NCBI GenBank assembly: GCA_009835735.1
Contig: VXWX01000013.1
Span: 1-54,204 of the forward strand
DNA: 54,204 bases
Direction: 5' to 3'
From: Acidimicrobiaceae bacterium
Lineage (GTDB): Bacteria > Actinomycetota > Acidimicrobiia > Acidimicrobiales > Aldehydirespiratoraceae
Both the position numbers and the translations under genes were made by a program. The notes under the pieces were generated by a model. It worked only from the letters and a program-made list of their open reading frames with translations. It ran no database searches and was not told the origin of the DNA. Each line of letters begins with the position of its first letter. The stretch's first letter is position 1. This document shows, one piece after another, positions 29,445-54,128 of this stretch.

Positions 29445-29765
29445 GTGGCGTCTAGCGGTGGTTGGGCGAAGAAAATGCATGCCAAGATTCGCATTGAGCG
29501 CATCCGTAGACGGGTGCTGCGTCAAGACTACGGCGGCGAGATGAAAGACCGCAGCACCGTCCGTGTGGCCGCTAGGGTCGTGGAGACCACGGACGGGAAG
29601 GCGCTGCGAGGGAACGTGACCCATCACACCGCTGAGGGTGCTCGGGTGTTCACCGATGGCGCCCGCGCCGACGAGGGACTCCCGAACCGGTCAAGTGTGT
29701 GCCGCTCAGTCGGGGACGGCAAGATCGGCTGGCGGCTCCGGTACCGCGAACTGGTGGCTGCATGA
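29445..29765 (+). pseudogene. IS1595 (ISXO2-like) transposase C-terminal fragment
   Basis: The frame encodes about 106 residues. Residues 33-92 follow the ISXO2-like transposase pattern: MKDRSTVRVAARVVETTD, then G-x-V-x-x-H-T-A-E-G-A-R-V-F-T-D-x-A-R-A-x-x-G-L-P-N and V-x-R-S-V-G-D, with the second catalytic Asp in the VFTDGARA turn. Upstream, GGWAKKMHAK resembles the degenerate remains of the Y-x-G-G-x-x-x-N-x-H region after the first Asp. The first Asp, the zinc ribbon and the terminal N-G-x-E-S-F-W segment are absent, so it cannot be an active transposase. Its stop overlaps the methyltransferase ATG (ATGA), so it might still provide translational coupling. Confidence 0.65.
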
Positions 29766-30583
29766 GAGTCGAGTGCGCCGACAACTTGGCCTTCATGGGG
29801 GCGATTCCTGATGCCTCGGTGCATCTGGTGGTGACGTCACCGCCCTACAACCTCGGCAAGGACTACGAGAGCCGTTCGTCGCTCGACGCCTATCTCGCAT
29901 CGCAAGCCGCTGTTGTGGCAGAGGCAGTGAGGGTGCTACACCCGCGTGGGTCGATCTGTTGGCAGGTGGGCAACTTCGTTGACAACGGCGAGGTCATCCC
30001 ACTCGACGTAGTGCTCTATGACATCTTTGCTAAGCACGACCTCAAGTTGCGAAATCGGATCATCTGGCACTTCGGGCACGGGCTGCACTGCAAGCGGCGC
30101 CTCTCGGGCCGGTACGAGACTGTCAATTGGTGGACGAAGACCGACGATTACACATGGCATCTCGATCCCATCAGGGTGCCTCCAAAATACCCCGGCAAGC
30201 GACACTTCAAAGGACCCAAGGCTGGGGAGTTGTCGTGCAATCCGCTTGGCAAGAACCCGAGCGATGTATGGGAGATCCCCAACGTCAAGAACAACCATCC
30301 TGAGAAGACGATCCACCCCTGCCAGTTCCCGGTCGAGTTGATCGAGCGCCTTGTGCTATCGATGACCGATCCTGGCGACACGGTCTTGGACCCTTACATG
30401 GGTGTAGGATCGGCGGTCATTGCAGCCGAGATGCACGGACGCGTCGGATATGGCTGCGACATAAGCGCGGAATACGTGTCCGTTGCTCGCGAGCGACTCG
30501 ACCGGCTTGCTGAAGGGACCCTGCGAACCCGGCCGATGGGTAAGCCTGTCTACGACCCGAATCTGCCCCGCGGCGGTCACTGA
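29762..30583 (+). CDS. Type II DNA methyltransferase, beta class (N4-cytosine or N6-adenine)
   Basis: Protective methyltransferase of a restriction-modification pair, 273 residues. The order of motifs defines the beta class: catalytic motif IV TSPPYN (Ser26-Pro-Pro-Tyr29) first and the SAM-binding motif DPYMGVGSAV (from Asp210) last. SPPY is most common in N4-cytosine enzymes such as M.BamHI and M.BglII. The middle (about residues 115-165) is the likely target-recognition region. Its stop overlaps the endonuclease start (TGATG), so enzyme ratios may be set by coupling. Base composition and codon use are less GC-rich than the flanking housekeeping genes, which points to transfer. Confidence 0.9.
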   Translation: MRVECADNLAFMGAIPDASVHLVVTSPPYNLGKDYESRSSLDAYLASQAAVVAEAVRVLHPRGSICWQVGNFVDNGEVIPLDVVLYDIFAKHDLKLRNRIIWHFGHGLHCKRRLSGRYETVNWWTKTDDYTWHLDPIRVPPKYPGKRHFKGPKAGELSCNPLGKNPSDVWEIPNVKNNHPEKTIHPCQFPVELIERLVLSMTDPGDTVLDPYMGVGSAVIAAEMHGRVGYGCDISAEYVSVARERLDRLAEGTLRTRPMGKPVYDPNLPRGGH

Positions 30584-31194
30584 TGCAGATGGTGGAGACG
30601 TATTCGCACTTGAATGGCCTGGAATACCTCCTTGTCCACCGGCGAGCGCTGTGGGACGAGGTGCGGGAGGTGATTGCGGGGGTTGACGCCGAGGCATGTA
30701 AGACGAAGGTCTCGAAGGAGCAGCGCAGCTACGGCGTGAAGTTCTACTCGCCGGGGGACATGAATAAGGCGTTTACGACTGGATTCAAGGCTCGTCACTG
30801 GGCTGAGCGCCGCAATACCTTCTGGGTCACCGCTGACGCGAATCTGCTTCGGAGCATCTATGGGCTCACCGCTGACCAGCAGCACGATGCTATCGAGGCG
30901 GCAGGCCATGACCCCATCCAGTCCTACAACCAGACGGACTTCGTCAAGGAACGCATCGCTGTTGAGGTGCAGTTCGGAAAATACGCCTTTGTCGCTCACG
31001 ACCTCTTCGTGAAGCATCTCAGCTTCTACGTTTCCGACATCATCGATGTGGGCATAGAGATACTGCCCATGAAGTCGCTGGAGCGACAGATGTCCTCCGG
31101 TGTGCCCTACTACGAGCGCGACCTACTGAATGTCATCCGTCAAGGCCGAAGTGTGCCCGCCGTTCCGCTTGTGCTGATCGGCGTTGCGCCATGA
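30583..31194 (+). CDS. BglII/BamHI-family type II restriction endonuclease
   Basis: A 203-residue homodimeric-type endonuclease (BglII itself has 223). The segment QTDFVKERIAVEVQFGKY contains Asp119, Glu128 and Gln130, the same spacing as BglII Asp84, Glu93 and Gln95, its Mg2+ site. Further family blocks are IDVGIEILPMKSLERQMSSG (about residues 154-173) and VPLVLIGVAP at the end. The partner methyltransferase is directly upstream. Recognition is probably a six-base palindrome with a central GATC, as in AGATCT or GGATCC, but this cannot be decided from sequence alone. No controller (C) protein gene is visible. Confidence 0.87.
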   Translation: MQMVETYSHLNGLEYLLVHRRALWDEVREVIAGVDAEACKTKVSKEQRSYGVKFYSPGDMNKAFTTGFKARHWAERRNTFWVTADANLLRSIYGLTADQQHDAIEAAGHDPIQSYNQTDFVKERIAVEVQFGKYAFVAHDLFVKHLSFYVSDIIDVGIEILPMKSLERQMSSGVPYYERDLLNVIRQGRSVPAVPLVLIGVAP

Positions 31195-32290: not shown

Positions 32291-34633
32291 GTGACTGACC
32301 AGCATCCCGAGCAAGGTCCCGGAGCGGCTGAGCCTGAGGGGACCCCCGAAGACGACACGGCCGTTCTCACCGCAGAGCTGCTGTCGGCGGAATCGGCTCG
32401 CCGAGACGCTCAGGACCGCGCCGGCGAGCAGGTGCTCTTCGCGGACGACCTCCTGCCGGGGGTCGGCGACGAGGAGATGCCGCTGCGCGAGGGCCTCGCG
32501 ATGGGTGGTGCCTTCACGTTCATCGTGCTGCTCGTGCTCAACAGCCTTGACGAGCTCGAACAGGCCGCCATGGCCGTGCTGGCCCCCGACATCCGTGACA
32601 CCTTCGGCGTCTCCGACGGCACGATCACCTTCATAGCATCTGCCTCGGCTGCCTTCGTGGTGCTGGGCGCCTTCCCGATGGGCTGGCTGGCCGACCGCAT
32701 CAGACGAGCGCCGATCGTCGGGATTGCAAGCGCGGTGTTCTCCGGGATGGTGTTCCTCTCAGGCTTCGCGGTGAACGCGTTCATGCTGTTCTGCACCCGC
32801 TTCGGCGCTGGCATCGCCAAGTCGAACACGATCCCGGTGCACAGCTCGCTGCTGGCCGACACCTACCCCATCGGGGTACGGGGCCGCATCGGCGGGCTCA
32901 CCCAGTCCACCGGCCGGGCCGTGGCCGCCATCAGCCCGATCGCGGTGGGCACCGTGGCTTGGGTCGCCGGCGGTGACGAGGGCTGGCGGTGGGCGTTCTT
33001 CCTGCTGGGCCTGCCGGTGGCGGTGTTCGCGGTGGCCGCCTTCCGGATCCCCGAACCGACCCGGGGCCAGTGGGAGAAGACGAGTGTCCTCAGCCAGGTG
33101 ATCGCCGACCCCGACCCCGCTCCCATCTCGGTGGAGGCTGCCTTCGCCCGGCTGCTGAGGATCCAGACGGTCAGAGCGGTGCTGTTCGCGTTCGTCGCTC
33201 TGGGTTTCGTGCTGTTCACGATTCCCGTTCAGTCCAACCTGTTCCTGGAGGACGAGTTCGGTCTCGGCACGTTCGGGCGGGGGGTGGCCACCTCGGTCGC
33301 TGGTTTCGCCGCGGCGGTGGTGCTGCCGATGGTGGGGCTGCGCTTCGATCGGCTGTACCGCCGCGACCCGTCTTTGACTCTGCGGCTGATCGGGGGACTG
33401 CTGCTCCCAACCTCGGTCCTGGTGCCGCTGCAGTTCGCCATGCCCAACGAGTACCTGTTCGTGGTGGTGGACGTCCCCCGCACCGTGCTGTCGGCAGCCG
33501 CCTTCGCCATGGTCGCTCCGGTGGTGTGGTCGATCGTGCCCTACCGGTTGCGAGGCCTGGGCTCAGCGTTGATCACCCTGTTCATCTTCCTGTTCGGCGC
33601 AGTGGGCGGATCACTGGTCGCAGCGTTCCTCGTCGACTCCTACGGCGTGCAGACCGCGGTGACCGTGCTGGCCCTCCCGGCGGTGTCCATCGGCTCGGTC
33701 TTCTTGATCCGGGGCTCGCGGTCGATCAAGCACGACCTGTCGATGGTGGTTGCCGAACTCGAGGAGGAGCTGGCCGAGCACGACCGCAGGCGCCTCGACC
33801 CAGAGTCCACTCCGGCGCTGCAAGCCAGCAACATCGACTTCAGCTACGGCGCGGTGCAGGTGCTCTTCGACGTCTCCTTCGAGGTGGGTCAGGGCAAGAC
33901 GCTGGCCCTGCTCGGCGCCAACGGCGCAGGCAAGTCGACTGCGCTCAGCGTGGTCACCGGATTGTTGACGCCCGAGCGGGGCGAGATCCGCATGCACGGG
34001 CGCTCGATCACCTACACCACCCCGGAGCAGCGCTCCGCGATGGGTGTGCAGATGCTGCCCGGCGGGCGGGGGGTGTTCCGTGAGCTGAGCATCGAGGACA
34101 ACCTTCGCATCGGCGCTTACAAGTACCGGCGGGACTCCGCCGACGTGCAACGGCGCATCGATCGGGTGGTCGAGATGTTCGAACAACTCGAGGGCCGTCT
34201 TGGTGAGCGAGCCGGCGACCTCTCCGGCGGGCAGCAGCAGATGCTGGCGCTGGCTCGGGTAATGATGCACGATCCCGAGATACTCATCATCGACGAGATG
34301 AGCCTCGGGCTGGCCCCCACCATCGTCCAAGACCTCGTGGCCGGACTCCAGCGGCTACGTGAGGCCGGGCAGACGATGATCGTGGTGGAGCAGTCGCTCA
34401 ACCTGGCGCTGTCGCTGGCCGACGACACCGTGTTCCTCGAGAAGGGCGAGGTGCGCTACGCGGGGCCGGCACGCGATGTCATCGAGCGGCCCGAACTGAT
34501 GCACGAAGTGCTATTCGGCGCCGACCCGGCGCCGGGTGTTGTCGACGACGCCGGGGCCGACAGCACAGGCTCCGCCGCCGGCACTGGCGCTGATAGCACC
34601 GAATCGCCCTCCGACGCGGGCAACGGAAGCTGA
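32291..34633 (+). CDS. MFS transporter fused to a LivF-type ABC ATPase, cassette 1
   Basis: A 780-residue two-part protein. Residues 1-70 are a charged cytosolic lead ending in DDLLPGVGDE. Residues about 72-470 form an MFS transporter of about twelve helices with the cytoplasmic loop GWLADRIRRAP (MFS motif A). Residues about 475-508 are a charged linker. Residues about 510-745 form a complete ABC ATPase: Walker A GANGAGKST (Lys548), signature LSGGQ (644-648), Walker B with Asp668-Glu669, then LGLAP and VEQS, where LivF has Gln instead of the switch His. An acidic Gly/Ala/Ser tail follows. The LivF character and the 6-base spacing to the LivHMG gene say that the ATPase should pair with the LivG domain encoded next door. 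What the MFS half moves is unknown. The GTG start follows xerC by 11 bases. Confidence 0.9.
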   Translation: MTDQHPEQGPGAAEPEGTPEDDTAVLTAELLSAESARRDAQDRAGEQVLFADDLLPGVGDEEMPLREGLAMGGAFTFIVLLVLNSLDELEQAAMAVLAPDIRDTFGVSDGTITFIASASAAFVVLGAFPMGWLADRIRRAPIVGIASAVFSGMVFLSGFAVNAFMLFCTRFGAGIAKSNTIPVHSSLLADTYPIGVRGRIGGLTQSTGRAVAAISPIAVGTVAWVAGGDEGWRWAFFLLGLPVAVFAVAAFRIPEPTRGQWEKTSVLSQVIADPDPAPISVEAAFARLLRIQTVRAVLFAFVALGFVLFTIPVQSNLFLEDEFGLGTFGRGVATSVAGFAAAVVLPMVGLRFDRLYRRDPSLTLRLIGGLLLPTSVLVPLQFAMPNEYLFVVVDVPRTVLSAAAFAMVAPVVWSIVPYRLRGLGSALITLFIFLFGAVGGSLVAAFLVDSYGVQTAVTVLALPAVSIGSVFLIRGSRSIKHDLSMVVAELEEELAEHDRRRLDPESTPALQASNIDFSYGAVQVLFDVSFEVGQGKTLALLGANGAGKSTALSVVTGLLTPERGEIRMHGRSITYTTPEQRSAMGVQMLPGGRGVFRELSIEDNLRIGAYKYRRDSADVQRRIDRVVEMFEQLEGRLGERAGDLSGGQQQMLALARVMMHDPEILIIDEMSLGLAPTIVQDLVAGLQRLREAGQTMIVVEQSLNLALSLADDTVFLEKGEVRYAGPARDVIERPELMHEVLFGADPAPGVVDDAGADSTGSAAGTGADSTESPSDAGNGS

Positions 34634-34639
34634 GACGCG

Positions 34640-37459
34640 GTGGTCCTCGCAGCCTGGATCACACGGCAGCTCGTATTCAACGGAGCGGTCACGGGCCTGG
34701 TCATCGGCATGCTCGCCATGGGCATCGTGCTCATCTACCGATCCACCCGGGTGATCAACTTCGCGGTGGGGAACCTGGGGCTGCCCGCGGCCGGCTTGTT
34801 CGCCCTGATGCAGATCGACTGGGGCTTCCCCTTCTGGATCGGTCTGGCTACTGCCTTGCTGATCGGCACGTTGGCTGGCGCGCTGGTGGAACTGACCGTG
34901 GTGCGCCGCCTGTTCAGACGTCCCCGGGTGATACTGCTGGTGGCCACCGTGGGCGTTGCCCAGTTGATGCGGGCGGTGATCGCCGCGTTCCCCGACATCA
35001 CCGACACTACGCAGCGCTATCCGGTAGCGGCCCGCACCGTTTGGGAGAACGCACCGTTCGGCCTGCGCATCGCCGCTCCCCAGGTGGCGATCATCGTGGT
35101 GGTGCCCATTGTTGCCGTCGCTCTGGGCTGGATGCTGAACCGCACGATCTTCGGGCGTGCAGTTGCCGCCTCGGCTGGCAACCCCGAATTGGCCCGCTTG
35201 TCGGGTGTGAACCCGAAGGTGGTGTCGACGTTCGTGTGGACGGTCGCCGGCCTGCTGTCGTCTCTGTCGATCATCTTGCTGAGCGGCCAGTCGGGGGCGG
35301 TGACCGGCCTGGCGAACCTGGGACCGCTTACCTTGGCCCGAGCGCTGGCCGCGGCCGCCATAGCGGGAATGAGGTCGTTTCCCAGAGCAGTCGTGGCGGG
35401 GCTGGCCATCGGCGTGACCGAGTCGGTGGTGAGATTCAACTACCTGTCCGAGGCGGGTCTGATCGACTTCCTGCTGTTCTGCGCGGTGCTGGTGGCGGTG
35501 TATGTGCAGAGCCGCGGCAGCCCGGAGGAGACGATCCTGGCTTTCGTTCCGCGCATCCGGCCGGTGCCGGCGCGCCTTGAACGGCTGCGGTGGGTCCGGG
35601 CACTGCCCCGGATCACGCTTGCCGCCGCCCTGGCCTTCGCCATCGTCCTGCCGCTGATAGTGACCCTGCCGTCGAGGCATCTGCTGTACGCGACGGTTCT
35701 GGGCTTCGCCATCTGCGCCATGTCGGTGACGGTGATAACGGGCTGGTCGGGCCAGCTGTCGCTGTCGCAGATGGCCTTCGCGGGCATCGGAGCGCTGTCG
35801 GGGGCGGCGTTCAGCCGGGGCTTCGAACTCGATATCGGCTGGCGCGGCTTCCGCTTGATCGATGTGGAGGCGGTCGGGGTGCCCTTCGTGGTGTCGATCC
35901 TGCTGGCGACCCTGTTCACCGCCCTAGTGGCGTTGCTGATCGGCGCTGGAGCGCTGCGGGTGCGGGGCCTGATGCTGGCGGTGAGCACGTTCGCTTTCTC
36001 GATCGCATCGACCCAGTACCTGTTCCGTCGACCGTTCTTCACCGGCGGGAGCAGTTCGAGCGTTCCCTACCAGCGGGGCACGCTGTTCGGCATCGATCTC
36101 TCGTCTCAGCGGTCGTACTACTACTTCACGCTGGGCGGCTTTGTGATCGCCTATGCCGTGGTATCGAGGCTGCGGCGCAGCGGCATCGGCCGCTCCACCA
36201 TCGCAGTGCGTGACAACGCGGCCGGTGCCTCCGCCTACACCGTAAGCCCCACTAGGGCGAAGCTCACCGCGTTCGGTCTGGCCGGGGGGCTCGCCGGCTT
36301 CGGGGGCGCGCTGCTGGGCGGCTTGGTGCAGAACATCCGCTTCTCGCAGGTGCTGTTCCAGGTCGAGGACTCGCTGCGGGTTGTCGGCATGGCCGTGATC
36401 GGAGGGCTGGGCTCGGTCACCGGCGCGGTGCTGGGCGCCGTGTGGGTCGAGGGAATGCCGGCCTTCTTCGGAGACAACGATCTGGTGCCGCTGTTCACGT
36501 CGAGCATCGGGTTGCTGGTCATCATCATGTACCTGCCCGGCGGCTTCATCCAGGTGGTCTACACAGCCCGGGACGGCCTGTTGAGCTGGCTCGCATCCCG
36601 GCTGCCGACCGAGGATGTTCCTGGTGTCGCGCCGGCCTCGCCGGCCAGCCTGAGCCGCCGGGACCCGGCCGGCGGTGATGTCCCCGAAGTTGTGCTGCGG
36701 GCCGAGAACGTGTCGGTGCGTTTCGGCGGCAATCAAGCCGTGTCGCAGGTCAGCATCGAGGTGCGCCGCGATGAGATCGTCGGACTGATCGGCACGAACG
36801 GCGCCGGCAAGACCACGCTGATGAACGCGGTCGGCGGGATGGTCAGATGCGAGGGCCGTGTGGAGCTGATGGGGCGGGACCTGACTGGTGTGTCGGCCGC
36901 GCGGCGAGCCAGTGCCGGCCTGGGTCGGACGTTTCAGGGGGCCACGCTGTTCCCGGAGCTGACCGTGCGTGAGACGGTGATGGTGGCGCTTGAGGCCAGG
37001 GGCCGCACGCCCTTCATTTCAACTGCGCTGCACCTGCCCCACACTCTGGTCAACGAGAGACGCCGCCGCGCCGAGGCTGATGAGCTGATCGACTGGTTCG
37101 GTCTGGGTGCCTACGCCGACCACTACGTGTCGGACCTGTCCACCGGCTCCCGGCGCATCGTCGAGCTGGCCGGCCTGCTGGCGCTCGACGCCCGAGTGTT
37201 GTGCCTGGACGAGCCCACCGCCGGCGTCGCCCAGCGCGAGACCGAGGCGTTCGCCCCCCTTGTCCGCAGGATCCGCAGCGAGCTGGGTGCCGGGATCCTG
37301 CTGATCGAGCACGACATGACGGTGATCATGGGAGTCAGCGATCGGGTGTATTGCCTGGAGTCCGGGTCGGTGATCTCGGCGGGCACTCCCGACGAGGTCA
37401 GGAACGACCCGCTGGTCGTCGCCAGCTATCTCGGCACCGCCAGCGAGACCGCAGGCTAG
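34640..37459 (+). CDS. Fused LivH-LivM-LivG branched-chain amino acid type ABC importer, cassette 1
   Basis: A 939-residue triple fusion: permease LivH (about 1-300, with IYRSTRVINFAVGNLG), permease LivM (about 312-650, with TGWSGQLSLSQMAFAGIGAL) and ATPase LivG (about 683-939). The ATPase has Walker A GTNGAGKTT (Lys724), Walker B CLDEPTAGVAQRE and the switch His in LIEHDM. Its signature motif is LSTGSRR rather than LSGGQ. With the upstream MFS-LivF product it supplies both permeases and both ATPases of a Liv-type importer for amino acids, amides or related small molecules. The substrate is probably set by the binding protein encoded next (37562). Start GTG at 34640. Confidence 0.93.
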   Translation: MVLAAWITRQLVFNGAVTGLVIGMLAMGIVLIYRSTRVINFAVGNLGLPAAGLFALMQIDWGFPFWIGLATALLIGTLAGALVELTVVRRLFRRPRVILLVATVGVAQLMRAVIAAFPDITDTTQRYPVAARTVWENAPFGLRIAAPQVAIIVVVPIVAVALGWMLNRTIFGRAVAASAGNPELARLSGVNPKVVSTFVWTVAGLLSSLSIILLSGQSGAVTGLANLGPLTLARALAAAAIAGMRSFPRAVVAGLAIGVTESVVRFNYLSEAGLIDFLLFCAVLVAVYVQSRGSPEETILAFVPRIRPVPARLERLRWVRALPRITLAAALAFAIVLPLIVTLPSRHLLYATVLGFAICAMSVTVITGWSGQLSLSQMAFAGIGALSGAAFSRGFELDIGWRGFRLIDVEAVGVPFVVSILLATLFTALVALLIGAGALRVRGLMLAVSTFAFSIASTQYLFRRPFFTGGSSSSVPYQRGTLFGIDLSSQRSYYYFTLGGFVIAYAVVSRLRRSGIGRSTIAVRDNAAGASAYTVSPTRAKLTAFGLAGGLAGFGGALLGGLVQNIRFSQVLFQVEDSLRVVGMAVIGGLGSVTGAVLGAVWVEGMPAFFGDNDLVPLFTSSIGLLVIIMYLPGGFIQVVYTARDGLLSWLASRLPTEDVPGVAPASPASLSRRDPAGGDVPEVVLRAENVSVRFGGNQAVSQVSIEVRRDEIVGLIGTNGAGKTTLMNAVGGMVRCEGRVELMGRDLTGVSAARRASAGLGRTFQGATLFPELTVRETVMVALEARGRTPFISTALHLPHTLVNERRRRAEADELIDWFGLGAYADHYVSDLSTGSRRIVELAGLLALDARVLCLDEPTAGVAQRETEAFAPLVRRIRSELGAGILLIEHDMTVIMGVSDRVYCLESGSVISAGTPDEVRNDPLVVASYLGTASETAG

Positions 37460-37561: not shown

Positions 37562-39190
37562 GTGTCGATGATTCACAAGCGGACACAGAGCACACTGCGG
37601 GCACGAGCGGCGGTCCTCGTTGCCGCGCTGGCACTGGTAGCCGCGGCCTGCGGCGGCGGCGACGAAGCGGACGACGAGGTGTCGACACCGGACACCGGCA
37701 GTGCCAGCACCGAGGTCGACAGCTCCAGCAGCGACAGCTCCAGCGCCGACAGTTCCAGTAGCGACAGCGCCAGCACCGACAGCCCAGCCGAAGAGACGGC
37801 CACGACGTCTGACAGCGACCCCGAACCAACCGAGTCAGCGTCCGAGCCGGCCGAGTCCGACAGTGCAGCCGAGCAGCCGGCCGACGAGGCCGACGAAGAG
37901 ACCGCCGTCGAAGAACCCTCCGAGGAAGCCGCGGCACCGTTGGGGTGGAGCGGCCTGGCCCCGAACATGACGGCCGATGCCCCTCTCACCGCGTCGTGGA
38001 GGGGCGTGACTGAGGACACGATCACAATCGGCGTCTCGATGCTCAACTTCGAACTCCTGCAGGAGATGGGACTCACGGCAGCAGGCTGGGGCGACCAGCA
38101 GGGCGTCTTCCAGGCCTTGGTCGACGACCTGAACGCCAACGGCGGGATCCTGGGCCGCAACGTCGTGGCCGTCTACGACGTCTACAGCCCCATCGACGCC
38201 GCCGACGCGGAACGGGCGTGCACCGTTCTCACCCAGGACAACGAGGTGTTCGCGGCTGTGCTCGGATTCGTCGGTCCGCTGGCCGGCACCGCCGACCCCT
38301 GTTTCGCTGGGACCAACAACACCCCGCTCGTGGGTGGTGAGCAGACCCCCGACGAGCTGGCCCAGGCCACGGCTCCGTGGTTCAACGTGGAGCCCAGCAC
38401 CGACGATCACACGTCCAACCTCCTCGACCTGCTGGTCCAGACCGGCAGAGCCGACGGGGCCAGGGTGTTCGTGGTGTCGCACCAGGCCTCGACAGGCGAC
38501 GAGCCTTTGGTGCTCGAGGGGCTTGCCGCGCGCGGGATCGAGGTCGTGGGCAAGGCTGTCCTCGACGCCAACGACGGCGACACCGCTGCTCAGGACCAGT
38601 TGATGCAGGTCATTTCCGAACGGATCAGGGCCGATGGGGCCGACACCGTGATGATCAATGGCAACCCGGCGGCCACCATCCGGGGCCTGGGCTTGAACGG
38701 GATGCTCGATGCGGTGACCATCTGGAGCAACAACGCGGCCGGACTCAACAATCTCGGCGAGACCTTCGACCACGAGTGGGCTCGGGGCGCCATCGCCTCC
38801 GACGGTCCCTCCGAACTAGACATCTGGAACGACGATGTGTTCCAGGACTGCGTGCGGGTGGTCAACGACGCCGGCATCGGGGCCGACTTGCGGCCCACAG
38901 CGGAACTGGCCGACGACGACGAGAACTGGTTCAACCCGGTCCGCCGCTACTGCGGCCATCTGTCGCTGTTCGCGCAGATCGCGGCCGCGGCCGGTCCGGA
39001 CCTTACGCCGGAGACATTCGAGCAGGCGGCCTACACGCTGACCGACTTCGTTCTGCCGGGTGCTCCAGCGAACTCGCTGTCCCCCACCAAGCTCGGCGCC
39101 CGCGACCTGTACCGGCTAACGACCTTCGATCCCGACGTCGGCAACGGCGAGAACGTACCGCTAACCGAACTCATCGACATCGTCCCCTGA
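37562..39190 (+). CDS. Lipoprotein substrate-binding protein, LivJ/type I fold, cassette 1
   Basis: A 542-residue extracytoplasmic binding protein. The signal peptide ends in LVAAAC, so Cys would be lipidated and the protein tethered to the membrane. A tether of about 95 residues rich in Ser, Asp, Glu and Thr follows, built partly from tandem 15-base repeats. The type I periplasmic-binding fold starts near TITIGVSM and includes NANGGILGRNVVAVYD. It should deliver ligand to the LivHMG/MFS-LivF complex encoded upstream on the same strand. AAGGAG precedes the GTG at 37562; the ATG at 37568 is an alternative. A strong hairpin follows the stop. Confidence 0.9.
   Translation: MSMIHKRTQSTLRARAAVLVAALALVAAACGGGDEADDEVSTPDTGSASTEVDSSSSDSSSADSSSSDSASTDSPAEETATTSDSDPEPTESASEPAESDSAAEQPADEADEETAVEEPSEEAAAPLGWSGLAPNMTADAPLTASWRGVTEDTITIGVSMLNFELLQEMGLTAAGWGDQQGVFQALVDDLNANGGILGRNVVAVYDVYSPIDAADAERACTVLTQDNEVFAAVLGFVGPLAGTADPCFAGTNNTPLVGGEQTPDELAQATAPWFNVEPSTDDHTSNLLDLLVQTGRADGARVFVVSHQASTGDEPLVLEGLAARGIEVVGKAVLDANDGDTAAQDQLMQVISERIRADGADTVMINGNPAATIRGLGLNGMLDAVTIWSNNAAGLNNLGETFDHEWARGAIASDGPSELDIWNDDVFQDCVRVVNDAGIGADLRPTAELADDDENWFNPVRRYCGHLSLFAQIAAAAGPDLTPETFEQAAYTLTDFVLPGAPANSLSPTKLGARDLYRLTTFDPDVGNGENVPLTELIDIVP
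37718..37777 (+). repeat. Four tandem 15-base repeats in the binding-protein tether
   Basis: Units at 37718, 37733, 37748 and 37763 follow GACAGCTCCAGCAGC with few changes and encode D-S-S-S-S or close variants. The repeat stays in frame, so copy changes would alter tether length without breaking the gene. Confidence 0.75.
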
Positions 39191-39259: not shown

Positions 39260-40924
39260 CTAGCGGCCCGGCGCGGCGCGGTAGTCGTCGATGGGGACGA
39301 TGCAGATGTTCTCTGCTCCGAACGGGCTGGGCAGGGTGCAGGGGTACTCGAAGCGCAGAGTGTGGATGGCGTTGGGAGCCTGCGTCTTGCCCGGCCGTAT
39401 CGTGAACGGCAGCATCTCGTTGGAGTCGATCGGACCCAGATTGGCCAGTGCCTCGTAGATGTCGGCCCGCGTCGGGTTGTCGCCCGCCGCATAGATGGCC
39501 CGCAGGGCCGTGCGCATGATGTTGCAGACCGTGGTCACCATCCCGTAGGCCGATGAGCCTGAGCCGTCCATCCGGTCGGCGTTCTCGTGGTTGGCTCCCG
39601 ATGGATTGTTGGCACCGTAGGTGTCGTTGCACATCTCGTTGAACGGTCGCGGCTCGTAGTCCTCGAGCCGGTAGGCGCCCGTGTCGGCGTCGTCGATGAT
39701 CAGCGCGCCGTTGTAGAGGTTGCCCGCGGCCTCGCCGCCGAAGGCCACCACCTTGGACGACACCAACTCGCCCGCGTGGGCGTTGAAGTCCGAGGCGTAG
39801 AACTGGACGTCCCCCGGCGCGAACCCCTGGGTGTCCATCTCGAGGATGTAGGTCGGGGTCGACACGACGTTGAGGACGTTGAAGAAGACGTCGATGCCCG
39901 CACTCCGCATCCGCTGCACGGACTCGACGACGCCTTCCAGGCAGAAGGTGCCGCCGGCGCAGCCGATCACGTCGAAGACGGCGACATCGATTCCCTTGGA
40001 GTTCAGGGTGTCGACCAGCCCCGCCTCCACCGCCTCGTACTGGCCCGGCGTGTCGGGCGCGGCGACACCGATCGTCTTGCCGTCGAGCTGGCCGCGGTCG
40101 GCCAGGTCGGCCGCCAGCCAGCGCAGGCTCTCCTCCAGGGTCGGCGACAGCGAGATGAGGCGGTCCCCGCCCCGGCTCATGAACTCCTCGCTCTGCCCCT
40201 GAGTCGAGATGAAGGCGGTCTCGTTCTGCTCGACGATGCACAGGTTGGCCGAGCCTTGGAAGCCGCTGGAGTTGAGCAGGATCACGCCGTTGTAGTCCTC
40301 GATGGCCTGGATGCAGGCCGCGTTGCGGTCTTCGTCCACTGTCGCGCCGAGAACCTCCAGTTCGATGGTGTGCATCTCGATCATGCGGCCTCGCACGCCC
40401 CCGCACTGCTCGTTGACCACCGCAGTGAACGTGTCGTACATCTCGGCCACGTTGCCCACCGGGACTGCGAAGCCCATGGCCGCGAAGTCCTCCAGCTTCG
40501 ACCGCAGGTGCACGAGCGAGATCGAGTCCGCCTCGATGCCCTTGTCGGTGGCTATCCGGTCGGGCGCCGGGTCGTGGGTGTGGCAGAAGGCGTCGAGCTG
40601 GGTGAAGGGGTTGTCGCCGCGGTCGTACGTGGCCTGGAACTCGTCGAATATCCCGTCCCGGGGATCGTCGAAGATGTTCGGTGGCGGACCCTCGGGCTCT
40701 TCGTCGGGCTCGGGGGCGGCTGTTTCTGTTTCGGGCTCTTCGTCGGGCTGGGTCGTGTCCGGCTCGGTGGTCTCCGGCTCGGCTTCGGGTGCCTGTGTGG
40801 TGGGCGCGGCCTCGCCATCGTCGTCGGAGGCCGTCACTTCGACCGACACTTCGCCGCCGCAGGCCGCGGCCAAGAAGGCCAGGATGACGACTGCGGCGAG
40901 CGTCAAGCGCAGATTCTTGATCAT
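39260..40924 (-). CDS. Lipoprotein substrate-binding protein, cassette 2
   Basis: A 554-residue extracytoplasmic binding protein. The signal peptide (MIKNLRLTLAAVVILAF) ends in LAAAC with lipidation Cys, followed by an acidic Pro/Glu/Thr-rich tether (about residues 24-90). The body has a type I binding-protein pattern (for example KTIGVAAPDTPGQYEAVEAG and YASDFNAHAGEL) but differs clearly from the cassette 1 protein, so ligands probably differ. GGAGGA lies just upstream of the minus-strand ATG. It is transcribed away from the MFS-LivF/LivHMG genes of cassette 2, from a shared 177-base region. Confidence 0.87.
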   Translation of the reverse strand: MIKNLRLTLAAVVILAFLAAACGGEVSVEVTASDDDGEAAPTTQAPEAEPETTEPDTTQPDEEPETETAAPEPDEEPEGPPPNIFDDPRDGIFDEFQATYDRGDNPFTQLDAFCHTHDPAPDRIATDKGIEADSISLVHLRSKLEDFAAMGFAVPVGNVAEMYDTFTAVVNEQCGGVRGRMIEMHTIELEVLGATVDEDRNAACIQAIEDYNGVILLNSSGFQGSANLCIVEQNETAFISTQGQSEEFMSRGGDRLISLSPTLEESLRWLAADLADRGQLDGKTIGVAAPDTPGQYEAVEAGLVDTLNSKGIDVAVFDVIGCAGGTFCLEGVVESVQRMRSAGIDVFFNVLNVVSTPTYILEMDTQGFAPGDVQFYASDFNAHAGELVSSKVVAFGGEAAGNLYNGALIIDDADTGAYRLEDYEPRPFNEMCNDTYGANNPSGANHENADRMDGSGSSAYGMVTTVCNIMRTALRAIYAAGDNPTRADIYEALANLGPIDSNEMLPFTIRPGKTQAPNAIHTLRFEYPCTLPSPFGAENICIVPIDDYRAAPGR

Positions 40925-41101: not shown

Positions 41102-43321
41102 ATGGCAGACGACTCGCCCGAGATGACCGGACCCGAGCCGTCGGTCGCCGATCTGGCGGAGGCGATCCTCGACGAGGAGGCCAGACGCCGGGCCGAGCAG
41201 GCTGAGCGCGACGCCGAGACCATCCTTCCCGACGACCTGCTGCCGGGTGTGGGTGACGAGCCCATGACCCTGCGCCAGGGTCTGCGGGCCGGCGGCAAGG
41301 CCACCGTGTTGGTCATGTTCCTGCTGGCCTTCATGGACGAGATGCCCCGAGCCATCCGGGTCCTCGCCCCCGACATACAGGACTCGCTGAACGTCAGCGA
41401 CACCGTGCTGTTCGGGATCCTCGGCTTCGGCGGCGTGACCCTGGTGCTGGGTGCGGTTCCCATGGCCGCCCTCGCCGACCGGGTGAAGCGGGTGGCCATC
41501 ATTCCGGTGGCGTCGGCCTTCTGGGGTGTGACCGCATTCCTGAGCGGCCTGATCGTCAACCCGTTCCAGCTGTTCCTAACCAACGCGGGTACCGGTTTCG
41601 GCCAGGCCTACCGCATTCCTGTGTCGAACTCGCTGCTGGTGGACACCTACCCGATCCCGGCCCGGAGCCGGATCTTCGCGCTGGAAGGCCTCGGCCGGCC
41701 CGTCGGCCAGCTCCTCGGCCCTCTGATAATCGGAGGCATTGCAGCCCTGGTGGGAGGAGACGAGCCCTGGCGAGCCGCCTTCTTCGCCGTCGCCGCCGGT
41801 CCGGTGGTGGCCGCCATCGTGTCGGCCCTGGTACTGCGCGAGCCGCCCAGAGGCCGTTTCGAGAAGGAGGCCGTGTTCGGCGACGAGCGGGTGCAGGTCG
41901 AGGAGTTGCCGGTGTCGATCGGCACCGCCTTCGCCCGGCTCCGCAAGATCAAGACCTTCTACTACCTGTCCAGCGGCGTGGGCGTCCTCGGCTTCGCCCT
42001 CATCGCCATTCCTATCCAGTTCAACCTCCTGCTCGAGGACAAGTACGCCATGGGGCCCTTCGAGCGGGGTGTCGTCGAGTCCCTCATCTGGGTGGCCGCG
42101 TTGATCGGCCTGCCCGTGGCCGGACGGCTGTTCGACCGGGGGTTCCGCCGCGACCCGGCCGCCATGATGCGCCTGGCGGGCATGCTGGTGATGGCAGCCG
42201 GCGTGATCTACGCGGTGGCCCTCCCCATGAAGATCCTCGGCGGACTGGTCGCGCTGATGGCCGTGGCCCAGACCCTCATCTCGATGGCGTTCGTGGCCAC
42301 TCCCTCGGTGATCGCGGCGGTGTCGCCCTATCGCATCCGGGCCCAGGCCTTCGCTCTGTTGCCGGTGTTCATATTCCTGATGGGCGGCTTCTTCGGCGGC
42401 TTGATCGTGGGCCAACTCTCCGACGCCTACAACGAGCGCACCGCCATGCTGGTGGCCGCGCCGCCGGCCGCGCTGATCGGCGGCGCCCTGATCGCCTACG
42501 GCAGCCGCTTCATCCGCCTCGACATATCGCGGTCGGTCGAGGAGCTGCTCGAGGAGCGCGAGGAGCAGCAGCGGGCCGCGGCCGATCCTGCCTCCGTGCC
42601 CGCCCTCCAGGTCCACAACCTCGATTTTGCCTACGGAAGCGTGCAGGTGCTGTTCGACGTTTCCTTCGAGGTGGCCCGGGGCGAGGTGCTGGCGCTACTG
42701 GGGACCAACGGTGCAGGCAAGTCCACCCTGCTGCGGGCCGTCAGCGGGCTCGGCATCCCGGACCGGGGCGTAGTGAGGCTCGGGGGCCGCACCATCACCT
42801 ACGCCGAGGCCGAGGACCGTTTCCGCGCCGGGCTGGTGCAGCTCAGGGGCGGGGAGGGGGTCTTCGACGAACTCTCGGTCGCCGACAACCTCAAAGCCTC
42901 AGTATTGGCATCGGGTCTGAGCGACGCCGAGGCCGCGGCCCGGGCCGAGCGGGCGTTGAGCCTGTTCCCGGCCTTGGCCGAGCGCACCGACCTTGCGGCC
43001 CGCGACCTGTCGGGGGGTCAGCAGCAGATGCTGGCGCTGGCCATGGCCCTGATGCACGAGCCCGAGGTGCTGCTCATCGACGAACTCAGCCTGGGGCTCG
43101 CTCCCGTCGTGGTGCAGGAGCTCCTCGGAGTGGTGGAGAGTCTGCGCGAGGCCGGGCAGACGATGGTCATCGTTGAACAGTCGCTCAATGTGGCCCTGGC
43201 CTTCGCCGACCGGGCCATCTTCATGGAGAAGGGCCGGATCCGGTTCGAGGGCTCCGCCCAGGAGCTGGCCGAGCGCGACGATCTGGCCCGGGCGGTGTTC
43301 CTGGGAGGCGAGGGCGGATGA
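41102..43321 (+). CDS. MFS transporter fused to a LivF-type ABC ATPase, cassette 2
   Basis: A 739-residue paralogue of the protein at 32291. It has the same order: charged N-terminus with DDLLPGVGDE (about residues 44-53), MFS domain (about 62-465, motif A-like AALADRVKRVA), charged linker and LivF ATPase (about 500-735). The ATPase has Walker A GTNGAGKST (Lys540), LSGGQQQ, Walker B LLIDELSLGLAP and VEQS. It lacks the long acidic tail of cassette 1. GGGGGAG lies 3-9 bases before the ATG. Conservation of MFS loop motifs and of all ATPase motifs in both copies indicates that both halves are under selection. The LivHMG gene follows after 40 bases. Confidence 0.9.
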   Translation: MADDSPEMTGPEPSVADLAEAILDEEARRRAEQAERDAETILPDDLLPGVGDEPMTLRQGLRAGGKATVLVMFLLAFMDEMPRAIRVLAPDIQDSLNVSDTVLFGILGFGGVTLVLGAVPMAALADRVKRVAIIPVASAFWGVTAFLSGLIVNPFQLFLTNAGTGFGQAYRIPVSNSLLVDTYPIPARSRIFALEGLGRPVGQLLGPLIIGGIAALVGGDEPWRAAFFAVAAGPVVAAIVSALVLREPPRGRFEKEAVFGDERVQVEELPVSIGTAFARLRKIKTFYYLSSGVGVLGFALIAIPIQFNLLLEDKYAMGPFERGVVESLIWVAALIGLPVAGRLFDRGFRRDPAAMMRLAGMLVMAAGVIYAVALPMKILGGLVALMAVAQTLISMAFVATPSVIAAVSPYRIRAQAFALLPVFIFLMGGFFGGLIVGQLSDAYNERTAMLVAAPPAALIGGALIAYGSRFIRLDISRSVEELLEEREEQQRAAADPASVPALQVHNLDFAYGSVQVLFDVSFEVARGEVLALLGTNGAGKSTLLRAVSGLGIPDRGVVRLGGRTITYAEAEDRFRAGLVQLRGGEGVFDELSVADNLKASVLASGLSDAEAAARAERALSLFPALAERTDLAARDLSGGQQQMLALAMALMHEPEVLLIDELSLGLAPVVVQELLGVVESLREAGQTMVIVEQSLNVALAFADRAIFMEKGRIRFEGSAQELAERDDLARAVFLGGEGG

Positions 43322-46332: not shown

Positions 46333-47316
46333 ATGAGGCAGTTCATCGGCGTGCTGGCCCAAGCCGACAGCGAGGCCCTGCTGCACGATCCGTTGACCCA
46401 CACCGACTGGATCAAAGCCGGGATCGTGCTGGTCGCCACCGTCGTGCTGGCGATATCGCTGTCCAAGATCCTCCGCCGGACCGTGTCCCGAGGAATTGGT
46501 CACGGCTTCGCCGCCATCCTCACCTCCCGTTTCTTGGGCTACGCCGTGTTCATCGTCGGGCTGTCGTACGCGCTCACCGTGCTGGGAGTGCGGGTGGGCC
46601 CGCTGCTCGGCGCGCTGGGGCTCGGCGGTCTGGTGCTCGCGCTGGCCCTCCAGGGGGTTGTCGGCAACTTCGTGTCGTCGCTGATCCTGCAGGCCCGCCG
46701 GCCCTACACGGTGGGCGACACCGTCGAGCTCGACGGGCGCTTAGGTGTCGTCGAGGACATCGACTCCCGTACTACCCAGATCCGCGGCCTCGACGGCACC
46801 CACATCCGGATCCCGAATGCCAATGTGGCCGCGGCCACCATCGTCAACCTGACCCGAGAGACGGTGAGGCGTAGTTCGCTGGCCGTCGGGGTGGCCTACG
46901 ACACCGATCTCCAGCAGGCGACCGACGCCATCTACGAGGCTCTCGACCGGGCGCCCAGGGTGCTGCCGGAGCCAGAGCCTGCGGTGAACCTCGACGGTTT
47001 CGGCGACTCCAGCATCGGGTTCAATGTGCTCTACTGGCATGCCAGCGACGTTCCCTCCGAACTGGCCACCCGCCACGACCTGGTGCTGGCCATTCATCAG
47101 GCGTTCGCAGCCTCCTCCATCACCATCGCCTTCCCGCAGGTGACGGTGTGGAGCGGCCAGCCGCGACCCGACCGGCTGTACGGAGGAGAGGTGTCCGAGG
47201 TTCGCACCCCCTATCCCGGCTTGGATGTGATGCAGGCCGAGCGGGGCCGCCGCTCACTCGCCTGGCGTCGCGGAGGCCGCCGCCGCTCCGAAGCGGAGCC
47301 GACCGACGATCAGTAG
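46333..47316 (+). CDS. MscS-family mechanosensitive ion channel
   Basis: A 327-residue small-conductance channel that releases solutes on hypo-osmotic shock. It has N-terminal helices (about 28-50 and 66-85) and a pore helix of the MscS type, GPLLGALGLGGLVLALALQGVVGNFVSS (about 92-119). The beta domain follows, with YTVGDTVELDGRLGVVEDI and RIPNANV, then a C-terminal alpha/beta domain. The ATG at 46333 is chosen by position only; no strong ribosome binding site is seen. It stands alone between cassette 2 and the convergent TauE/SafE gene. Confidence 0.9.
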   Translation: MRQFIGVLAQADSEALLHDPLTHTDWIKAGIVLVATVVLAISLSKILRRTVSRGIGHGFAAILTSRFLGYAVFIVGLSYALTVLGVRVGPLLGALGLGGLVLALALQGVVGNFVSSLILQARRPYTVGDTVELDGRLGVVEDIDSRTTQIRGLDGTHIRIPNANVAAATIVNLTRETVRRSSLAVGVAYDTDLQQATDAIYEALDRAPRVLPEPEPAVNLDGFGDSSIGFNVLYWHASDVPSELATRHDLVLAIHQAFAASSITIAFPQVTVWSGQPRPDRLYGGEVSEVRTPYPGLDVMQAERGRRSLAWRRGGRRRSEAEPTDDQ

Positions 47317-50399: not shown

Positions 50400-51269
50400 A
50401 TGCTGCCCGCCCAGTTCGACTACGTAGCAGCCTCGTCAGTGGACGAGGCCATCGCCGCAAAGGCCGAGGGGGGTGACGAGACCCGGTTCCTTGCCGGCGG
50501 GCAGAGCCTGCTGCCGATGATGAAGCTTCGATTCGCGACGCCGTCGAAGCTGGTGGACATCAACCGGATAGCCAGCGCCGGCCTCAACTCCATCAGGCGC
50601 CACAACGGCCAGCTGCACATCGGCGCGCTGGTCCGCCACGCCGACATCGCCGCCTCCGATGCGGTCTCCGGCGCCGTGGCCTCGGCCGCCCCCTGGATCT
50701 CCGATCCACTGGTGCGCAACCTGGGCACCCTGTGCGGGTCGGTGGCCCACTGCGACCCCGAGGGCGATTGGAACTCGGTGCTTTTGGCCACTGGGGCCGA
50801 GGTGGTCGTCCAGGGGCCGTCAGACCGGCGGAGGAGCATTGACATCGGTGACTTCGTGGTGGACTTCTTCACCAACTCCCTAGCCGACGACGAGATGGTG
50901 TTGGGGGTGCACATCCCGGTGCCCTCGGGTCCGTCGGGGGGCTCGTACCAGAAGCTGGAGCGCAAGGTCGGCGACTACGCCACCGTCGGGGTGGCCGCCC
51001 ATCTCGAGCTGGCCGCCGACGGCACCATCTCGGCGGCCGGCGTGGCCATGACATCGGTGGCGCCCATCAATCGCAAGGCCACCGAGGCCGAAGCGCTGCT
51101 GGTGGGCAACGCGCCGAGCGCCGAGCTGTTCGCCGAGGCGGGTGAAGCAGCCGCGGCGGCCGCCGATCCCCGCGACGACGTGCGGGGCTCGGCCCGATGG
51201 AAGCGCCAAGTCGTGGCTGCGTTCACCGGCAGGGCCCTTGCGGCCGCCGCCGAGCAGGCCCAGGGCTGA
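50400..51269 (+). CDS. coxM: Aerobic CO dehydrogenase medium (FAD) subunit
   Basis: Flavoprotein subunit that passes electrons from the iron-sulfur clusters to quinone. At 289 residues it has the usual CoxM length. The FAD-binding motifs fall at the expected places: AGGQS at residues 32-36 (AGGHS in Oligotropha CoxM) and TLCG at 110-113 where the family has TIGG. It is first of coxM-coxS-coxL, the canonical order for form I CO dehydrogenase. The coxS ATG follows after 11 bases. Confidence 0.92.
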
Positions 51270-51280
51270 AGGGGGACACC

Positions 51281-51757
51281 ATGGAGATCACGGTCAACAT
51301 CAACGGAACCGACCACACCGCCGACGTCGAGCCTCGCCTGCTGCTCGTCGACCACATCCGCACCGGCGCCGGGCTTACCGGCACGCACATCGGCTGCGAC
51401 ACGACCAGCTGCGGGGTCTGCACCGTTCTGGTGGACGGCACGCCGGTGAAGTCGTGCACCATGCTGGCGGTGCAGGCCGACGGCCGCTCGGTGACCACCG
51501 TCGAGGGACTCAAGTCCGCCGACGGGCTGCACCCGGTCCAGCAGGCGTTCAGCGACGAGCACGGCCTGCAGTGCGGGTTCTGCACACCGGCCATGATGCT
51601 GGTGGGCGCAGCGCTGATCGACGAGAACCCGGCACCGTCCGACGACGAGGTCCGCTGGGCCATCTCGGGGAACCTGTGCCGCTGCACCGGCTACATGAAC
51701 ATCGTCAAGGCCATCCAGGCCGCGGCCGCGGCGGCGTCGTCCAACGGCGACAGCTGA
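51281..51757 (+). CDS. coxS: Aerobic CO dehydrogenase small (2Fe-2S) subunit
   Basis: A 158-residue subunit carrying two [2Fe-2S] clusters. The N-terminal plant-ferredoxin-like cluster uses Cys39, Cys44, Cys47 and Cys59 ([10 protein letters not shown] and SC). The C-terminal cluster uses Cys98 and Cys101 (CGFC) and Cys133 and Cys135 (CRC). AGGGGGA lies 4-10 bases before the ATG. It links the Mo-Cu site of CoxL to the FAD of CoxM. Confidence 0.95.
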
Positions 51758-51770
51758 AAGGGAGCGAGCA

Positions 51771-54128
<2,358 letters not shown>

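Follow-up and report, generated by a model that had tools for sequence, protein, structure and literature searches.

An MFS carrier fused to the LivF-type ATPase of a probable branched-chain-amino-acid-type ABC importer in actinobacteria

In the 54,204-nucleotide stretch of DNA analysed here (the window; Acidimicrobiaceae bacterium, contig VXWX01000013.1), two related transport operons, A and B, are separated by two binding-protein genes (Table 1). Operon A opens with an uninterrupted frame (32291-34633, plus strand) that, by ORF check, codes for a single 780-aa chain, in which a 12-helix MFS carrier is followed by a short helix and a complete LivF-type ATPase (fusion A). The LivH-LivM-LivG fusion (LivHMG) that the original prediction had placed 6 bases downstream starts at 34640, after the stop at 34633. 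System B, which was absent from that prediction, encodes a second fusion that is 46% identical to fusion A over residues 15-745 of A. An MscS-type channel is encoded close by (46333-47316), and any link with the transport of osmolytes would be guesswork. Aerobic CO dehydrogenase-type genes occupy 50400-54128, and the product of the large subunit gene (51771-54128) exceeds the NCBIfam equivalogue cut-off of TIGR02416 (1167 bits, cut-off 991) and carries AYRCSFR, which we take to be the form I CO dehydrogenase signature. Upstream of operon A, a gene for an N6_N4 DNA methylase is directly followed by one for a BglII-type restriction endonuclease (29699-31194; PF09195, E 4.5e-35), and the two are probably a type II restriction-modification pair.

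Table 1. Features of the two fusion operons in the window and of the MFS-LivF chain of operon A.
Feature	Position	Strand	Basis
MFS-LivF fusion A, 780 aa	32291..34633	+	ORF, Pfam
MFS domain, residues 66-488, 12 TM	32486..33754	+	profile; model pLDDT 84.8; PF07690
TM1 acidic pair D87-E88	32549..32554	+	alignment
MFS motif A, D135-R136-I-R-R139	32693..32707	+	conservation across aligned rows
TM4 R170, aligned with DgoT R126	32798..32800	+	alignment
TM4 K177, aligned with DgoT E133, charge reversed	32819..32821	+	alignment
Helix 479-502, joint from TM12 to ATPase	33725..33796	+	model; linker lengths
LivF-type ATPase domain, residues 508-743	33812..34519	+	Pfam, profiles; nearest solved structure 1ji0 among matches listed
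Walker A GANGAGKST	33914..33940	+	motif alignment
Signature LSGGQ	34220..34234	+	motif alignment
Walker B ILIIDE	34280..34297	+	motif alignment
Gln switch Q701	34391..34393	+	motif alignment
LivH-LivM-LivG fusion A, 939 aa	34640..37459	+	two BPD_transp_2 stretches, ABC_tran, BCA_ABC_TP_C; model pTM 0.82
Binding protein, SBP1 type, 542 aa, lipobox-like N-terminus	37562..39190	+	PF13458
Binding protein, SBP2 type, 554 aa, lipobox-like N-terminus	39260..40924	-	PF13458
MFS-LivF fusion B, 739 aa, 46% identical to A	41102..43321	+	Pfam, comparison
LivH-LivM-LivG fusion B, 966 aa	43362..46262	+	profiles

In fusion A, Pfam detects MFS_1 at residues 92-439 (E 4.3e-28) and ABC_tran at residues 526-669 (E 1.8e-28), both with about 100 bits and well above the curated cut-offs. 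Together with the single frame, these two domains confirm the original prediction that one polypeptide combines a full MFS transporter with a LivF-type ATPase. Hydropathy indicates 11 strong membrane segments in the MFS part, to which the structure model adds a helix at 163-180 (TM4), giving 12 in total. The 12-TM MFS fold is thus present, as is motif A between TM2 and TM3 (D135-R136-x-x-R139). With the whole MFS-LivF model as query, the Foldseek matches listed were mainly ATPases or ABC exporters; a second look with VIA-align found MFS matches and a full carrier fold.

The partner chain and its neighbours have the composition of a HAAT importer. LivHMG of operon A contains two BPD_transp_2 stretches (E 2.3e-47), corresponding to the LivH and LivM permease domains, and a LivG-type ATPase with ABC_tran at 702-861 and BCA_ABC_TP_C at 911-934; the Foldseek matches listed for its model span about 250 columns, the size of the ATPase part. 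Both binding proteins that adjoin the system belong to Peripla_BP_6. The second ATPase is the one in fusion A, for which UrtE and LivF are the best NCBIfam models. It is LivF-like and stands outside the UrtE and LivF equivalogues, whose cut-offs it does not reach (185.1 of 285.8 bits and 168.4 of 441 bits, respectively). Walker A, LSGGQ, Walker B and the Gln switch were all seen in fusion A, as predicted. LivF domains of the family have an intact Walker A, LSGGQ or LSGGE, a Walker B with Asp-Glu and the Gln switch, and these motifs are kept in nearly all of the 135 aligned systems, judging by the six commonest variants listed for each. The partner LivG has intact Walker A and B and LSTGT or LSTGS, with a His where LivF has the Gln switch. 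The Gln switch is typical of LivF, and ABC ATPases pair head-to-tail. LivF:LivG pairing with ATP sites in trans may be proposed from the complementary motifs and from natural F-G chains, which support it only indirectly.

The fusion is found well beyond the window. In a set of 61 genomes, comprising the window's own and 60 relatives, 47 contain an MFS-domain match at E <= 1e-20, and 19 of 396 genomes of a phylum sample match the MFS domain at E <= 1e-25, these matches being partly domain-mapped. A scan of genome contigs gave 157 confirmed stretches, of which the best 80 were taken; 79 of these loci encode an MFS-LivF chain whose MFS is full-size or cut only by a contig end (L230), and in the remaining one, L200, the MFS is split across two frames. 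Ten of the same 80 loci come from cultured isolates (two each from Embleya scabrispora, Yinghuangia seranimata, Y. soli, Streptomyces and Parafrankia), and all ten have LivHMG. Among 72,556 plasmid records, one, from Embleya sp. NBC_00888, matches across the whole MFS query. Counting each MFS sequence once over both locus sets, there are 153 distinct fusions, 129 counted as MFS-LivF (F-type) and 24 as MFS-LivF-LivG (FG-type); the fusion of locus L062, cut at the locus end and probably FG-type, is counted among the 129.

Whether a LivHMG fusion is always adjacent was a check put forward with the original prediction. For 150 of the 153 fusions, a LivH-containing ORF is located on the same strand at a distance of at most 2.5 kb; of the other three, two are at contig edges and one, L085, has LivHMG 2.9 kb away behind a binding-protein gene. 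Since the search query was the MFS domain alone, the LivH partner was not selected for. In the 24 FG-type systems the parts are split as LivHM and MFS-LivF-LivG, with both ATPases behind the MFS on one chain, and this second split ties MFS, LivF and LivG together independently. Both the LivH partners and the FG-type chains support the predicted ABC importer with a carrier attached through LivF. A single giant chain, LivHM-MFS-LivF-LivG, was considered for frames of 1,700-1,895 aa and rejected: LivHM maps to a different frame that overlaps the upstream part of the long one, and these cases were therefore read as two chains. A Peripla_BP_6 binding protein lies within 2.5 kb in 75 of 135 systems.

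The joint between carrier and ATPase is of nearly constant length. Measured between profile ends, the MFS-LivF linker has 17-21 residues in 110 of 111 F-type systems, with one outlier of 59, and 19-21 residues in 23 of 24 FG-type systems, with one of 24 residues. The other joints vary, from 34 to 177 residues between LivM and LivG and from 17 to 87 between LivF and LivG. A helix of fixed length at the MFS-LivF joint only suggests mechanical coupling. At the level of sequence, the analysis thus demonstrates one chain, intact domains, a fixed linker, a near-constant partner and two alternative splits, and the join of an MFS to an ABC importer, present in many actinobacteria, looks old, rigid and kept by selection.

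We propose that the 780-aa chain would be built into an ABC importer of the HAAT (branched-chain-amino-acid) type as an integral subunit. Of the components, the two permease halves and one ATPase would come from LivHMG and the other ATPase from the LivF part of MFS-LivF, and a lipid-anchored binding protein would bring the substrate to the importer. From the motifs, the hydrolytic site would be formed by LivG Walker A/B and its His, closed by LivF LSGGQ, and the other, weaker site by LivF Walker A/B and Gln with LivG LSTGS. Because the connection between the MFS and LivF is a short helix of constant length, LivF motion in the ATP cycle would be felt by the carrier half, and vice versa. Most likely, the MFS of the fusion A clade would be a proton-responsive carrier that acts on the substrate of its own system or on a closely related compound, and the complex would act as a double ABC-plus-carrier permease, with ATP state and carrier state mechanically linked. 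That the MFS transports the substrate of its own ABC system is the reading that we place first, as a tentative choice somewhat short of probable; a sensor role is placed second. Counted in favour of the first-placed reading are the single frame with both its domains, the carrier fold found by VIA-align, the intact LivF motifs, the LivH partners, the cultured-isolate loci, the FG-type split and the constant linker. Of the three roles suggested with the original prediction (a relay, export of an exchange product, a carrier gated by ATP state), a relay in series within one membrane makes little physical sense; the fixed linker favours mechanical coupling. It is tempting to speculate about a new transporter class in which the LivF-LivG motor would drive or clutch the MFS through the rigid helix, which we consider unlikely. 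If true, a single binding protein and a single motor would serve two substrate paths, ABC and MFS, within one complex, and alternating access of the MFS would not be powered by ion gradients alone.

The conserved charges of the MFS domain bear on transport. Row counts exclude rows with unknown residues, the truncated or split L107 and L112, and hits shorter than about 380 residues, including the pieces of L153 and L200. D135, R136, R139, R330 and R421 are all retained in 111 of the 121 F-type rows and in each of the 25 FG-type rows, and the D87/R170 pair is found in 79 of 121 and 22 of 25 rows, respectively; both counts support a working carrier for the system's substrate. The E88/K177 pair occurs in 85 of 121 F-type rows, and FG-type rows have E/K in 10 and E/R in 9 of 25. 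Positions 87/88/170/177 read DERK in 77 of 121 F-type rows, and DENQ or DDNQ in 16 of 28 members of the group with 30-45% identity to A, to which paralogue B belongs. When aligned to DgoT, D87 corresponds to D46 and R170 to R126, and E88 falls at R47 and K177 at E133. In a part of PMC11649914, DgoT R47 and E133 are described as handling carboxylate and proton, and R47, R126 and E133 are said to be conserved across SLC17. Fusion A has E88, R170 and K177 at these places and keeps one of the three charges. The charges of the Spinster group, taken from aligned Spns1, are TM1 Asp-Arg and TM4 Arg...Glu; fusion A has D-E and R...K. Since one of the two DgoT charge pairs is reversed, proton coupling is not to be assumed, a point against the first-placed reading. 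The exchange of charges at E88/K177 suggests that the ligand is not an organic anion; it may be cationic or zwitterionic.

Co-divergence points in both directions. Over 135 systems, MFS distances correlate with those of LivM at 0.943, LivH at 0.930 and LivF at 0.855 (LivH-LivM 0.950), which is counted for transport of the system's own substrate; these high values may partly reflect similar rates of membrane domains. Nearest-neighbour agreement of the MFS (n=135) was 63 with LivF, 62 with LivM, 57 with LivH and 56 with LivG, LivH and LivM agreeing in 78. A closer tie of the MFS to LivH/LivM than to LivF is therefore not supported, as this measure shows no preference, and the result is counted against that reading. 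In the 74 systems with a unique binding protein within 2.5 kb, the rank correlation with binding-protein distance was 0.784 for the MFS, similar to LivH (0.787) and LivM (0.780), with LivG at 0.647 and LivF at 0.506, again in favour. With LivF and LivG controlled for, MFS and binding protein had a partial correlation of 0.587 (0 of 200 permutations as high); it was only 0.212 when LivH and LivM were controlled for as well, which counts against. The DERK core is present in 43 of 52 SBP1 systems versus 3 of 22 SBP2 systems, which is likewise counted in favour. Gene context was compared in the best 80 of 157 loci, in which proline racemase family and ornithine cyclodeaminase/mu-crystallin family genes accompany 14 loci, a GH3 glycosidase 12 and an MscS channel 18. 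As contexts vary, the imported substrates probably differ between clades, with the architecture unchanged; glycosides would be predicted for the GH3-linked clade, and proline or hydroxyproline for the proline-racemase clade. The core reads DERK in 11 of 12 rows with a GH3 context, and all 10 rows with a proline-racemase context carry DERK or EERK. The four-residue core thus does not follow the inferred substrate, which argues against the first-placed reading; 23 other MFS positions differ between these two contexts.

In a tree of 97 LivF-type domains, 78 fused domains, a third paralogue and the LivF of locus L072 form one clade (99/95), and 17 other ordinary LivF rows adjoin it from outside. 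The unfused MFS genes of L070, L071, L072 and L074 nest within the FG-type MFS group; the carrier thus split off again, which is counted in favour of the first-placed reading. At L072 (8959-17098), LivH-LivM-LivF-LivG is one 1,245-aa chain without a fused MFS, a case counted against, and an unfused MFS of the fused clade lies about 3 kb away on the opposite strand. At L099 (13814-16036), the fused MFS groups with unfused carriers and has the linker of 59 residues; it may be a separate fusion. As constraining all fused MFS into one group gave a borderline p-AU of 0.049, the fused MFS may go back to one fusion event or to two. The window's genome holds a third system (contig C52 of G000, L100, 5548-10274), consisting of a 665-aa chain and its own LivHMG of 905 aa. 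The N-terminal 390 residues of this third paralogue gave no Pfam MFS hit and have about 12 hydrophobic segments. They match an MFS profile of all 155 rows (probability 96.9, E 1.5e-10, 347 columns) and a profile of 14 rows only at probability 5.6; in an HMM search, significance was confined to the C-terminal half. At aligned places the motif A Asp and both TM4 charges are missing, its first hydrophobic segment has no acidic residue, and its LivF motifs are normal, which is counted against transport. Relatives of it occur in 10 of 61 genomes. The MFS fold can thus persist in the absence of the charges, and for that branch at least this favours a role as sensor or as structural element.

Such a sensor (transceptor) would bind substrate, protons or a cytosolic product and switch the LivF ATPase via the fixed helix, with the MFS transporting little or nothing, by analogy with regulatory domains on other importer ATPases. 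The helix of fixed length, the degenerate third paralogue, a charge core that stays unchanged across differing gene contexts, and the naming of a sensor kinase-MFS family in a table of PMC3924187 are all in keeping with this. However, motif A and central charges in most members, together with close unfused carriers, go beyond the needs of a sensor, and we regard this role as possible but somewhat unlikely. An MFS that only anchors LivF structurally or offers it a platform for assembly, and whose conserved residues reflect folding alone, would fit the third paralogue and L072, where the fused MFS was lost. Membrane-embedded charges and motif A are retained, however, and the 17 ordinary LivF rows, from the window's own genome or a relative, do without an anchor, so this role appears quite improbable. 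To our knowledge, LivF proteins normally need no anchor.

The original prediction had also suggested an exchange product. The full carrier fold, and an architecture that is constant though gene contexts differ, would fit an exchanger that exports a by-product, an ion or a counter-substrate while the ABC part imports; no neighbouring gene, however, suggests a by-product common to the contexts seen, and we consider this role improbable. An artefact, whether through an overlooked stop, a false join in the assembly or the existence of two products, might be read from the split frames in single MAG loci (L153 and L200, on the same contig, and L112). This is extremely improbable, as the fusion recurs in 153 distinct sequences from many genera and in ten cultured-isolate loci with a constant linker; the sequencing error removing a stop, named with the original prediction as what might refute it, is contradicted by the same findings. 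Judged by sequence, both the fusion and its association with LivHMG are firmly established. Transport of the system's own substrate keeps its tentative first place.

Transport driven by ATP (primary) and transport driven by gradients (secondary) are regarded as distinct mechanisms. A family with an MFS in an ABC ATPase, conserved, rich in paralogues and also represented in cultured, non-pathogenic actinobacteria, would be a natural case of mechanical coupling, or of a carrier turned importer sensor. Our literature search, with most subscription papers and TCDB outside its scope, found no description of an MFS-ABC fusion. The HAAT family (TC 3.A.1.4), with LivFGHM and UrtBCDE, likewise has two BPD_transp_2 halves, a LivG-like ATPase with the BCA_ABC_TP_C tail, a LivF-like ATPase and a Peripla_BP_6 binding protein. 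Unlike in these importers, a 12-TM MFS here sits on the N-terminus of LivF, and LivH, LivM and LivG are one chain. The Spinster carriers Spns1 and Spns2 share 16-20% identity with the MFS of fusion A, which alone is joined to an ATPase, and Spns1 has TM1 Asp-Arg and TM4 Glu where fusion A has Asp-Glu and Lys. Compared with the SLC17-type DgoT of E. coli, R47 and E133 are replaced by E88 and K177, so that the charges are exchanged. Sensor kinase-MFS fusions (SK-MFS, 2.A.1.34), as far as the table of PMC3924187 that names them goes, likewise couple an MFS with a module that signals or catalyses; that module is a kinase, whereas here it is the ATPase of another transporter.
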